DNA of 6,716 bases from an uncultured Massilia sp. (GTDB taxonomy: Bacteria > Pseudomonadota > Gammaproteobacteria > Burkholderiales > Burkholderiaceae): NCBI GenBank assembly GCA_946886065.1, contig CAMPHU010000237.1:1-6716 (forward strand). Reading direction: 5' to 3'. Below, piece by piece: positions 885-3,161 of this stretch. The translations under genes were made by a program, and so were the position numbers. The notes beneath the pieces were generated by a model, which worked only from the letters and a program-made list of their open reading frames with translations, was not told the origin of the DNA and made no database searches. The number at the start of each line of letters is the position of its first letter. Within the stretch, counting starts at the first letter, position 1.

Positions 885-2528
885 ATGCCTTCGATGTACC
901 ATCATTTTTCCACTTTCAAGTTCAAGCTCTCGGTGCTGGTCACCGGCATGGTGCTGATCGCGGCCGTCGGGGTCGGCGGCATCTCGCTGCTGTTCGCCGA
1001 TTTCCAGATCGAGCGCATGATCGCCCGCCAGGAGCTGCTCGCCCTGGGCGGCGCGGCGGCCTATATCGACAACGACCTGCGCCACAAGCAGCAACTGCTG
1101 CGCGCCGTCGCCGAGGAAGCGCTGACGCGCGGGCTGGGGCCGGACGATATCCAGGCGCTGCTCGAATCGCACGACAGCCTGCGTGACGAATTCGTCAACG
1201 TCGCTTCCTACGATGCGCGCGGCGACCGCGTCGCCAGCCTCAGGAACCGTCATGACAAGATCATCAACGTCAGCCAGCGCCACTACTTCCGCCAGACCAT
1301 GGCCGCGCGCGAGAGCGTGGTCTCGGCACCCTTCCGCAGCGCCCTGACGGGCCGCCCGGTGGTCTCGATCACCCAGCCCGTCATCGACCGGCGCGGCAAC
1401 ATCGTCGCCATCCTGCTGGGCGGGATCGACCTGCTGCGGCCTTCGTTCGCGGACCAGATCGACGCATTGCGCGCGGGCGAAGCGGGCTACCTGTTCATCG
1501 TCGCCAACGATGGCGCCGTGGTGCACCACCCGAACAAGGACTTGCTGCTGGCCCGGCCCAGCGAGGAAGTCCAGCCGGTGCTGCACGCGGTGCGCGCCGC
1601 GCCCGAGGGCTGGCGCACCGACATGGTCGACGGCGGCTCGCGCTCGCTGGTGGCCTGGCGCCGCCTGTCCCATGTCGACTGGACCATCGCCGTTTCCTAC
1701 CCGCTGCGCAGCGCCTTCGCGCCCATGGTCTCGGTGCGCCTGAATTCCTTCGCCGCCGCCGCCTTGTTCACCGTGCTCGCCGGCCTGTTCGGCTGGGCGC
1801 TGGTGAAGATCCTCCTCGAGCCGCTCGACAAGCTGCAAAGGAACGTCGATCTGCACGACGCGGGCGCGGCCGGCATCGAGGTGTTCGACACCGGCGAGCG
1901 CGACGAATTCGGCCTGCTGAGCCGCGCCCTGTACCGGCTGTCGCGCCACCGCCAGCAGTCGGAACGGAAGCTGCAGCGCCAGGCAACCACCGACGTGCTG
2001 ACCGGCGCATGGAACCGCCGCATGTTCGAGGACTTCCTGCCCGCCGCCCTGGCCAGGAGCGGCCGCTCGGGCGAGGCCGTGGCCGTCGCCTTCCTCGACA
2101 TCGACCATTTCAAGGACATCAACGATACCCATGGCCACGCGGCGGGCGACGCGGTGCTGGTCGAGTTCGCGCACCGGCTGGCGGCCGCGGTGCGGGCCGC
2201 CGACACCGTCGCGCGCCTGGGCGGCGACGAATTCGTGATCGTGTTCGAGCAGCTGCAGGCGGCCGACGAAGCGCACCAGATCGGCGCCAAGATCCTGGCC
2301 GCCATGGCCCAGCCTTTCCGCGTGGGCGGCCAGTCCCTGCGCGTCACCGCCAGCGTCGGTATCGCCGTCGCCACCCAGGCCGCCGGCATGGAAGCCGTCA
2401 TGCGCTCGGCCGACGAGGCCTTGTACGGCGTCAAGGCGGCCGGCCGCAACGGGTATGCAATCAACCTGGTCGGCGCCGGCAAGCTGGGCACGGTGCGCGC
2501 CAAACCGCTCAGGCAGGCTGCTTCCTAG
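885..2528 (+). CDS. Membrane-bound diguanylate cyclase with periplasmic Cache sensor (dCache-HAMP-GGDEF)
   Basis: This 547-residue inner-membrane protein should make cyclic di-GMP from two GTP in response to a periplasmic signal. TM helix 1 is at ~15-37. A ~250-residue periplasmic region (38-287) reads as a double Cache domain: a long helix from ~39 (ERMIARQELLALGG), the segment around RHYFRQTM, then GYLFIVANDGAVVHHPN at 201-217, typical of the membrane-proximal sub-domain. TM helix 2 is at ~288-308, followed by a HAMP-like linker (EPLDKLQ at 312, ERDEFGLLSRAL before the catalytic domain). The GGDEF domain starts at DVLTGAWNRR (370-379), carries the metal-binding LDIDHFKDIN (404-413) and has an intact active-site GGDEF at 446-450. 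RAAD at 437-440, five residues before it, is a canonical RxxD inhibitory site, so product feedback is expected. There is no EAL domain. The ATG at 885 was chosen because AGGAG (875-879) lies 5 nt before it. The sensed ligand cannot be told from sequence. Confidence 0.93.
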   Translation: MPSMYHHFSTFKFKLSVLVTGMVLIAAVGVGGISLLFADFQIERMIARQELLALGGAAAYIDNDLRHKQQLLRAVAEEALTRGLGPDDIQALLESHDSLRDEFVNVASYDARGDRVASLRNRHDKIINVSQRHYFRQTMAARESVVSAPFRSALTGRPVVSITQPVIDRRGNIVAILLGGIDLLRPSFADQIDALRAGEAGYLFIVANDGAVVHHPNKDLLLARPSEEVQPVLHAVRAAPEGWRTDMVDGGSRSLVAWRRLSHVDWTIAVSYPLRSAFAPMVSVRLNSFAAAALFTVLAGLFGWALVKILLEPLDKLQRNVDLHDAGAAGIEVFDTGERDEFGLLSRALYRLSRHRQQSERKLQRQATTDVLTGAWNRRMFEDFLPAALARSGRSGEAVAVAFLDIDHFKDINDTHGHAAGDAVLVEFAHRLAAAVRAADTVARLGGDEFVIVFEQLQAADEAHQIGAKILAAMAQPFRVGGQSLRVTASVGIAVATQAAGMEAVMRSADEALYGVKAAGRNGYAINLVGAGKLGTVRAKPLRQAAS

Positions 2529-2625
2529 GTCCGGGCGTGGGCGGGCCGCTGCGCCGGTAGCGGCAGAACAGGCATGGCGGACAGGGCGTGGGCGGCGGCG
2601 CCGGCCGCGGTTCTGGCGCTTTCAT
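2509..2625 (-). CDS. Putative copper-inducible Cys-rich microprotein, 38 aa (CPPCLFC)
   Basis: A short minus-strand ORF, ATG at 2625-2623 and TGA at 2511-2509, encoding 38 residues. It begins MKAPEPRPAPPPTP, continues with the metal-ligand-like motif CPPCLFC (Cys15, Cys18, Cys21; CxxCxxC) and ends in a basic Pro/Gly-rich tail (CRYRRSGPPTPGPRKQPA). There is no signal peptide or membrane helix, so a cytoplasmic location is expected. Three lines support a real gene: a strong AGGAGG Shine-Dalgarno (2635-2630) 4 nt before the ATG, a CueR/MerR-type promoter (2652-2682) placed to give a ~20-nt leader, and a position beside a copper operon. The closely spaced thiols would suit Cu(I) binding, as a buffer or chaperone, but that is inference and I know no named family for it. 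The last 20 nt overlap the 3' end of the convergent diguanylate cyclase gene. The Pro/Arg/Gly-rich composition could also arise by chance in GC-rich DNA, hence intermediate confidence. Confidence 0.55.
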   Translation of the reverse strand: MKAPEPRPAPPPTPCPPCLFCRYRRSGPPTPGPRKQPA

Positions 2626-2629
2626 GAAG

Positions 2630-2635
2630 CCTCCT
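2630..2635 (-). promoter_or_regulatory. Shine-Dalgarno of the 38-aa Cys-rich ORF
   Basis: AGGAGG on the minus strand, a full match to the anti-Shine-Dalgarno complement, lies 4 nt upstream of the ATG at 2625. It is embedded in TTGAGGAGGCTTCATG. It is the best ribosome-binding site in the window and the main reason for accepting so short an ORF. Confidence 0.6.
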
Positions 2636-2651
2636 CAAGGGTAAATACGCC

Positions 2652-2682
2652 ACTCTGGAGCTTCCAATAATGGCAAGGTCAA
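2652..2682 (-). promoter_or_regulatory. CueR/MerR-family type promoter-operator driving the minus-strand microprotein
   Basis: On the minus strand a TTGACC -35 box (2682-2677) is followed by exactly 19 bp and a weak -10, CAGAGT (2657-2652), which keeps the important A2 and T6. The overlong 19-bp spacer is the hallmark of promoters activated by MerR-family metal sensors. The spacer holds an imperfect dyad centred near 2669 (minus 2679-2659): left arm ACCTTGCCA, right arm TTGGAAGCT. The left arm and -35 context closely resemble CueR operators of copA-type promoters (TTGACCTTnCC...GG.AAGGT). No MerR-family gene is in the window, so the sensor would act in trans. Orientation is clear: no usable -35/-10 pair exists around the dyad on the plus strand. 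A start near 2645 would serve the ORF at 2625-2509. Confidence 0.6.
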
Positions 2683-2740
2683 GCGGTTTGTCGCGCTTGC
2701 TTTCAGCATGCTCAAGGCCGTCGCCGCAGGAAAAACGCCG

Positions 2741-2759: not shown

Positions 2760-3161
2760 ATGACCCGCGCATTCAAGACCTTCCTGGTGTGGCTCCTGAT
2801 GGCCGTGCTCCCGCTGCATGCGGTAGCGGCGGGCATCGGCATGTCCTGCATCCCGCAGCACCAGGCAGACGCCGTCGCGGCCGCGGTGCAGCACGGCGAC
2901 GACCAGGCCCATGCGCACCATGGCCATCACGATGCCGCACAGGCGGACCAGGCGGACAGTGCCCCTGAGGCCGAGACCCAGACGCATTCGTCCTGCAGCG
3001 CCTGCTCCGCCTTCTGCGTGGGTGCGGTCGCACCGCCTTCGGCGTATTCTCCCGTGCTCTCCTTCGACGGCTCCGAGCCCGTCGTCATCGCGCCCGCCGC
3101 CTTCGCCGCGGGCTTCATTCCGGACGGTCCGCAGCGACCTCCCCGGCCTCAATCCGCCTGA
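2760..3161 (+). CDS. DUF2946-like exported protein with Cys/His metal-binding clusters
   Basis: A 133-residue protein with a clear N-terminal signal sequence (TRAFKTFLVWLLMAVLPLHAVAA, likely cleaved after ~A24), so periplasmic or membrane-anchored. After it come a GMSC (Cys30), a His-rich patch AHAHHGHH (50-57), an acidic/Gln linker, and a Cys cluster HSSCSACSAFC with Cys79, Cys82 and Cys86 (CxxCxxxC), then the ending GFIPDGPQRPPR (118-129). This layout (short, leader peptide, CxxxC, 'FxPDGPxRPPR'-like end) resembles DUF2946-type proteins found beside copper genes in Burkholderiales; I assign the family from pattern only. The function is likely copper binding or sensing. The ATG at 2760 is preferred over the in-frame ATG at 2670 because it places the signal peptide at the N-terminus and follows an extended -10 box. 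There is no Shine-Dalgarno, consistent with a near-leaderless start. An 82-nt gap with a hairpin separates it from the next gene. Confidence 0.7.
   Translation: MTRAFKTFLVWLLMAVLPLHAVAAGIGMSCIPQHQADAVAAAVQHGDDQAHAHHGHHDAAQADQADSAPEAETQTHSSCSACSAFCVGAVAPPSAYSPVLSFDGSEPVVIAPAAFAAGFIPDGPQRPPRPQSA

Follow-up and report, generated by a model that had tools for sequence, protein, structure and literature searches.

Organization of the locus

The window, by which we mean the whole stretch of 6,716 nt from an uncultured Massilia sp. that was analysed, carries a very small unit on its minus strand, in the gap between a GGDEF gene and a copper operon (Table 1). The unit consists of a CueR-type operator with its −35 and −10 elements, a Shine-Dalgarno sequence and a 38-codon ORF, whose final 20 nt are shared with the 3′ end of the GGDEF gene that converges on it. 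A first-pass annotation had pointed to the TTGACC box followed by a dyad-containing 19-bp spacer, to AGGAGG four nucleotides before an ATG opening 38 codons, and to a TGA inside the convergent cyclase gene, and each of these elements is present on the minus strand. The copper operon on the plus strand consists, in order, of a DUF2946-like ORF, a 102-aa ORF, an outer-membrane efflux protein, a multicopper oxidase and a CusF-like protein. The microprotein stands alone, adjoined by neither a ferredoxin nor an ATPase gene. An Rfam scan of the window returned no match, and a scan for sigma-70 promoters and terminators returned none at a spacer setting of 16–18 bp, which is blind to a 19-bp promoter.

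Table 1. Positions of the microprotein unit and the neighbouring genes in the window
Feature	Position	Strand	Remarks
GGDEF (diguanylate cyclase) gene	885-2528; stop 2526-2528	+	convergent with the microprotein ORF
CueR-type operator TTGACCTTGCCATTATTGGAAG	2661..2682	-	0 mismatches to the pattern; same site in L019 and G050
-35 element TTGACC	2682-2677	-	within the CueR-type operator
Spacer of 19 bp, imperfect dyad	2676-2658	-	between -35 and -10
-10 element CAGAGT	2657-2652	-	19 bp from -35
Shine-Dalgarno AGGAGG	2635-2630	-	4 nt before ATG; also in L019 and G050
CLFCRYR microprotein ORF, 38 aa, MKAPEPRPAPPPTPCPPCLFCRYRRSGPPTPGPRKQPA	2509..2625; ATG 2625-2623, TGA 2511-2509	-	
Codons for CLFCRYR	2554..2574	-	same residues in all 15 aligned members; codons of 16 members differ at third positions only
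DUF2946/CopL/CruR-like ORF	2760..3161	+	first gene of the divergent copper operon; context, outside the microprotein unit

A CueR-type promoter facing the microprotein

Promoters of the MerR/CueR type are defined by a dyad operator between the −35 and −10 elements and a spacer of 19–20 bp, and the region upstream of the microprotein has both the dyad and a 19-bp spacer. The operator pattern TTGACCTTnCCnnnnnKGnAAG was searched, with the reversed pattern as control, in 62 genomes of the genus of Massilia sp. ZL223 (G001, the genome that holds locus L019). It gave 113 sites, with a match in 58 of the 62 genomes, against a single site for the control. In the window itself 0.10 matches with up to three mismatches would be expected by chance (200 dinucleotide shuffles); besides the perfect match in Table 1 the sole other one, at 2656-2677 of the plus strand with three mismatches, arises from the same dyad on the opposite strand. 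The position of the −10 element was read in the 83 distinct sites of the DNA examined, which includes 80 oxidase loci and takes in only part of the 113 sites. NANNNT lies at exactly 19 bp in 78 of them, as TANNNT in 63 and as CANNNT, the subtype of the window, in 11; TANNNT occurs at none of the 83 with spacers of 15–18, 20, 22 or 23 bp and at two with a spacer of 21 bp.

The ORFs downstream of these operators, as named by eye, include heavy-metal ATPases with GMTCASC repeats, cueR-like MerR regulators and CopZ-like proteins. Only three sites are found by the pattern in G001, before an HMA-type heavy-metal ATPase ORF, cueR and the microprotein, and two in a second relative, G050; both genomes carry the window's version of the microprotein, and both are among the five of six related genomes tested in which CueR homologues score above the NCBIfam cut-off. 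At the place where a plus-strand −10 would be expected the window and L019 read AAGCGG and G050 reads AAGCCG. The plus strand thus has no −10, the promoter of the window lineage faces the microprotein, and we reject service of the operator to the plus-strand copper operon in this lineage. Orientation differs between lineages, since in seven other loci (L005, L007, L008, L009, L011, L017, L020) a CueR-type operator in a similar place is turned towards a DUF2946-headed copper operon; that of L016 points away from the copper operon, to a 136-aa ORF. L019, G050, L126 and L252 share with the window a TATACT element immediately upstream of the DUF2946-like ATG (at about 2740-2760 of the plus strand), a possible separate promoter of the plus-strand copper operon.

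A similar stretch is also seen on Sinorhizobium meliloti plasmids, for example in NC_003078.1 near 1116852, where about 70 bases without an annotated feature share 77.5% identity with window positions 2661-2730, operator included. The plasmid search that covered this stretch matched 82 records, mostly Sinorhizobium, those among the matches listed being about 70 bases at 77.5%. One further plasmid search gave a single plasmid, with similarity confined to the surroundings of the DUF2946 start, and another gave two records at E values of 2 and 9.

Conservation in the closest relatives

A 331-base region matches somewhere in 32 of the 62 genus genomes (E ≤ 0.001), and over its whole length only in G001 and G050. 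Both relatives (L019 in G001; L102/L106 in G050) keep the operator, AGGAGG and the ATG; their ORFs, 42 or 46 codons long, stop at the same place and differ by 12-nt indels that stay in frame. Frameshifts or loss of the cysteines behind a kept operator, which the first-pass annotation had held to speak against a gene, are not seen in either, as both ORFs retain frame and cysteines. By this comparison the 38-codon ORF is probably a real gene.

The constraint is confined to a small part of it. Codon differences among the three members of the lineage, as raw counts not normalised by site, are nonsynonymous versus synonymous 9 v 6, 13 v 9 and 17 v 6; because nonsynonymous differences exceed synonymous ones over the whole ORF, only a short element is clearly constrained, and the peptide outside the motif appears weakly constrained at best. 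CLFCRYRR is unchanged among the window, L019 and G050.

The CxxCxxC motif that had been proposed was upheld in part. CPPCLFC is indeed encoded in the window, but the conserved part is CLFCRYR with its CxxC. Among the sequences seen, the window, L019, L102/G050 and two database proteins, P0001 and P0033, are the only ones with the first cysteine; since that residue is lineage-specific, CxxCxxC is rejected as the family's defining motif. A search with a C-x-P-C pattern in 392 genomes drawn from the family found this sub-type only in G001 and G050, six further matches reading CWPCLYCSY.

Whole-peptide searches reached little further. The window peptide matched 4 of the 62 genus genomes at E ≤ 0.01, including G062 and G012:C23, which by eye are without the motif. 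The L019 peptide matched 11 of 12 records at E ≤ 10, its own place at 8.2e-23 and the next at 0.019, and in a protein search it found one protein, P0001. The protein search with the G050 peptide gave no candidate though P0033 shares its motif, so the search misses members.

A family defined by seven residues

We here define a CLFCRYR microprotein as a short CLFCRYR ORF directly behind a CueR-type operator, the arrangement found in the window and its relatives. Ten distinct operator sites have it (the window, L019, L084, L102, L110, L126, L180, L182, L198, L199). Near-identical copies are present in G029, G065 and G049, which brings the tally to at least 12 of the 113 sites, spread over 11 genomes. 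L084 and L102 initially came from a microprotein search, and L126 was picked up because its DNA is similar across the motif; all nine examples other than the window also appear in the operator-only list. The proteins are 38–82 aa long, apart from one 209-aa fusion (L180) that was excluded from the alignment, and among the 15 aligned the only invariant residues are Met1 and the motif. Across 16 members all seven motif codons show third-position variation, and their first and second positions are constant.

A search with a pattern that itself fixes most of the motif gave 50 matches, spread over 39 of the 392 family genomes, and its reversed control gave 18, so many of these matches are chance or unrelated. 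The DNA examined holds 22 distinct CLFCRYR-coding stretches, 15 with an operator within 420 bp upstream and 7 without, by an expression widened after L233, L252, L253 and L262 had been viewed. A search of 5.8 billion proteins gave 54 at E ≤ 10 (31 at E ≤ 1e-3), of 39–82 aa, including proteins annotated as hypothetical in Massilia timonae, M. varians and Pseudoduganella plicata; all 54 contain CLFCRYR, which is largely built in, as the search needs three shared five-residue words. No Pfam or NCBIfam model matched the short members tested. The CLFCRYR microproteins are apparently an undescribed family of very small proteins: the string CLFCRYR is absent from the open-access papers searched, and among the matches listed in the open-access literature, neither the peptide nor a CueR-ferredoxin-ATPase operon is described.

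Several loci show the motif, or one close to it, in other settings. In G037 (L264/L180) a CueR-type operator precedes the 209-aa ORF, in which CLFCRYR and a DUF3703 domain share one frame, and in G006 (L107) such an operator precedes an ORF that by eye resembles DUF3703 alone. Six loci (L241, L237, L243, L245, L250, L261) encode 62–64 aa ORFs with an N-terminal CMFCRYR and no CueR operator; they have a divergent TetR-like gene (by eye, Pfam-confirmed in L241 only) and inverted repeats of about CGGAACnnnGTTCCG nearby. L260 holds a further CMFCRYR ORF. A motif of this kind need not be copper-specific, since CMFCRYR proteins, some of them beside TetR-like genes, occur without such an operator.

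Operon context in relatives

String matching places an ISC-type ferredoxin gene next in 10 of the 15 operator-linked CLFCRYR loci, all 10 being among the 12 other than the window, L019 and G050, and a YHS-domain ATPase after it in 7 of the 15; among the seven stretches without operator both counts are zero (0/7 and 0/7). The two full-length ferredoxins tested scored 165.7 and 170.4 bits, above the 132.1-bit cut-off of fdx_isc, and the one ATPase tested contained YHS, HMBD and P-type ATPase domains and exceeded the TIGR01511 copper-ATPase cut-off. L233, L252 and L184 have the ferredoxin and no YHS match in the 1.5–6.8 kb examined downstream, and L253 keeps CLFCRYR beside a ferredoxin that is degenerate by eye. 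Downstream of the microprotein in the window, L019 and G050 there is no ferredoxin and no YHS ATPase, so the ferredoxin is not taken as defining the family, and the operon argument for the window rests on homology. L204 (G007) has a CueR-type operator directly before an ISC-type-ferredoxin-like ORF with no CLFCRYR ORF.

As in the window, the module is divergent from a DUF2946-TolC copper operon in L263, L184, L252, L253 and L262. In L265, however, some 7 kb separate it from the DUF2946 gene, and the 6.5, 4.2 and 3.0 kb examined of L266, L198 and L233, respectively, contain no match to DUF2946 or the cyclase, which makes the module a unit of its own.

Comparison with known copper systems

MymT is a bacterial copper metallothionein, and the microproteins are like it in being small thiolate peptides whose expression would be copper-linked. 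The same likeness extends to SmtA (PMC7558416); in contrast to the cysteine-rich, multi-metal definition in that article, two cysteines are conserved here (three in the window lineage), and metallothionein membership is ruled out on this count. According to PMC7558416, CueR activates copA, cueO and copZ upon Cu(I) binding, and Cu(I) is bound by MxCxxC in CopZ. Small size, a CueR-type promoter, a CxxC and, in relatives, an adjoining copper ATPase are shared with such CopZ/HMA chaperones, whereas at the sequence level the CLFCRYR members have 38–82 aa with seven conserved residues and the start Met; membership in the HMA (MxCxxC) family is ruled out, as neither HMA nor any other Pfam model matched the window, L019, L110 and L252 proteins at E ≤ 1. 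CueR-type operators also precede CopZ-like ORFs with CMFCAYR (L127), CMFCATR (L157) and CMFCSYR (L165) against the usual MTCxxC, letters close to CLFCRYR; L127 is above and L165 below the Pfam HMA cut-off. In Archaeoglobus fulgidus CopZ a fused Fe-S domain mediates Cu(II) reduction (PMC7558416). The pairing of a Cu(I) site with an Fe-S protein may be analogous, but in the relatives described here the genes are separate, the ferredoxin is of the [2Fe-2S] ISC type and there is no HMA domain.

CruR of Bordetella pertussis is a DUF2946 copper-sensing uORF whose CXXC is needed for copper control (PMC9426467). The microprotein resembles it as a short copper-linked first gene with a CXXC, and unlike it has no RAPP-like C-terminal motif and, in the window, no gene behind. 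It is the DUF2946-like ORF of the window that resembles CruR. Its DUF2946 score (16.3 bits) is below the cut-off of 23.7, as are its CzcI and CopL scores, and compared with the CruR criterion of a CXXC about 45 residues before a C-terminal RAPP it has CSAC at residues 79–82 and RPPRP at 126, with 43 residues between and five residues after RPP. Given this nearly CruR-like spacing, the window copper operon may be under translational copper control.

Proposed function and alternative explanations

Promoter anatomy, ORF conservation, the motif and the operon context in relatives are established by comparison, and the proposal of the first-pass annotation that a CueR-type promoter drives a real thiol microprotein has gained strong comparative support from operator specificity, the −10 fixed at 19 bp and the conserved ORF. 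We consider it reasonably probable, judging from sequence, that the window ORF is a real gene and a solo, short member of a Massilia-group module, encoding a CueR-induced cytosolic Cu(I)-thiolate peptide that serves as buffer or export feeder. On binding Cu(I), CueR would activate the promoter by realigning its 19-bp-spaced elements. In the translated peptide Cu(I) would be held by the two conserved cysteines, and arginines and aromatic residues would shape the site or dock the peptide. From its composition, by eye, the peptide appears to lack a fold. It may buffer Cu(I) or pass it to a Cu(I)-exporting ATPase. The latter role, a feeder for efflux, had been suggested at the outset and gains support because the module heads an operon with a copper ATPase in several relatives, but no ATPase is adjacent in the window. 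In relatives the ferredoxin might help to repair copper-damaged Fe-S enzymes or keep copper reduced. Against this best reading stand the excess of nonsynonymous differences over the whole ORF and the CMFCRYR proteins without an operator; in addition, two conserved cysteines are fewer than in a classical metallothionein, and 7 of the 22 CLFCRYR stretches have no operator.

An extension of this reading, built on analogy and on balance improbable, would make CLFCRYR a minimal Cu(I) chaperone motif without a folded domain. Together with the ISC-type ferredoxin and a YHS-type CopA it would form a split reduce-bind-export module, in which the Fe-S protein reduces Cu(II), the peptide catches Cu(I) and the ATPase receives it. 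This would be a genetic counterpart, in separate genes, of the Fe-S-fused CopZ of Archaeoglobus, and the window lineage would run on the peptide alone beside a periplasmic copper operon.

The overlapping linkage with the ISC-type ferredoxin gene, the presence of that gene in 10 of 15 operator-linked loci, and the basic and aromatic RYR that adjoins the CxxC, fit a peptide that docks on the ferredoxin or the Isc machinery, or is a redox switch, copper only setting its expression. We hold this to be unlikely, as the window lineage and the DUF3703 fusion have CLFCRYR but no ferredoxin, and a YHS copper ATPase follows in the 7 of 15 loci mentioned above. It is also doubtful that the ORF is a cis-acting leader, in which nascent CLFCRYR would be sensed and would couple to or gate ferredoxin translation, the window copy being a relic. 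In the ferredoxin-bearing loci inspected the microprotein stop does overlap the ferredoxin ATG, by 8 nt (mostly ATGCCTAR; ATGTCTAG in L112), 15 of 16 members have the motif 11–18 residues before the C-terminus, and the DUF2946 family that heads the neighbouring operon includes a copper-sensing CXXC uORF (PMC9426467). The leader explanation is weakened, however, since the motif is intact in the window, L019 and G050 though no fdx follows; in L264/G037 it is in one frame with DUF3703, 151 residues from the C-terminus, and L253 retains it beside its degenerate ferredoxin. A reading in which no protein matters, the transcript acting as copper-induced RNA antisense to the cyclase gene's 3′ end or the operator serving the divergent operon, is very improbable: the ORF ends inside the cyclase gene and seven other loci have the operator facing the DUF2946-headed operon, but against this stand the codon-level conservation of CLFCRYR, the Shine-Dalgarno sequence, the in-frame indels, the separation of the module from DUF2946 and cyclase genes in L265, L266, L198 and L233, and the plus-strand AAGCGG or AAGCCG.

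Implications

If the reading as a Cu(I)-thiolate peptide is true, it would add a copper-linked microprotein family, pared down to a seven-residue motif and left unrecognised by Pfam and NCBIfam in the members tested, and would test how little protein suffices for specific Cu(I) handling. In the Massilia group CueR-type promoters are also found ahead of an ISC-type ferredoxin, so that a single operon would allow both the damage of copper to Fe-S clusters and its export to be tested. Very small genes can be uncovered by inspecting what lies downstream of regulator sites, as done here.
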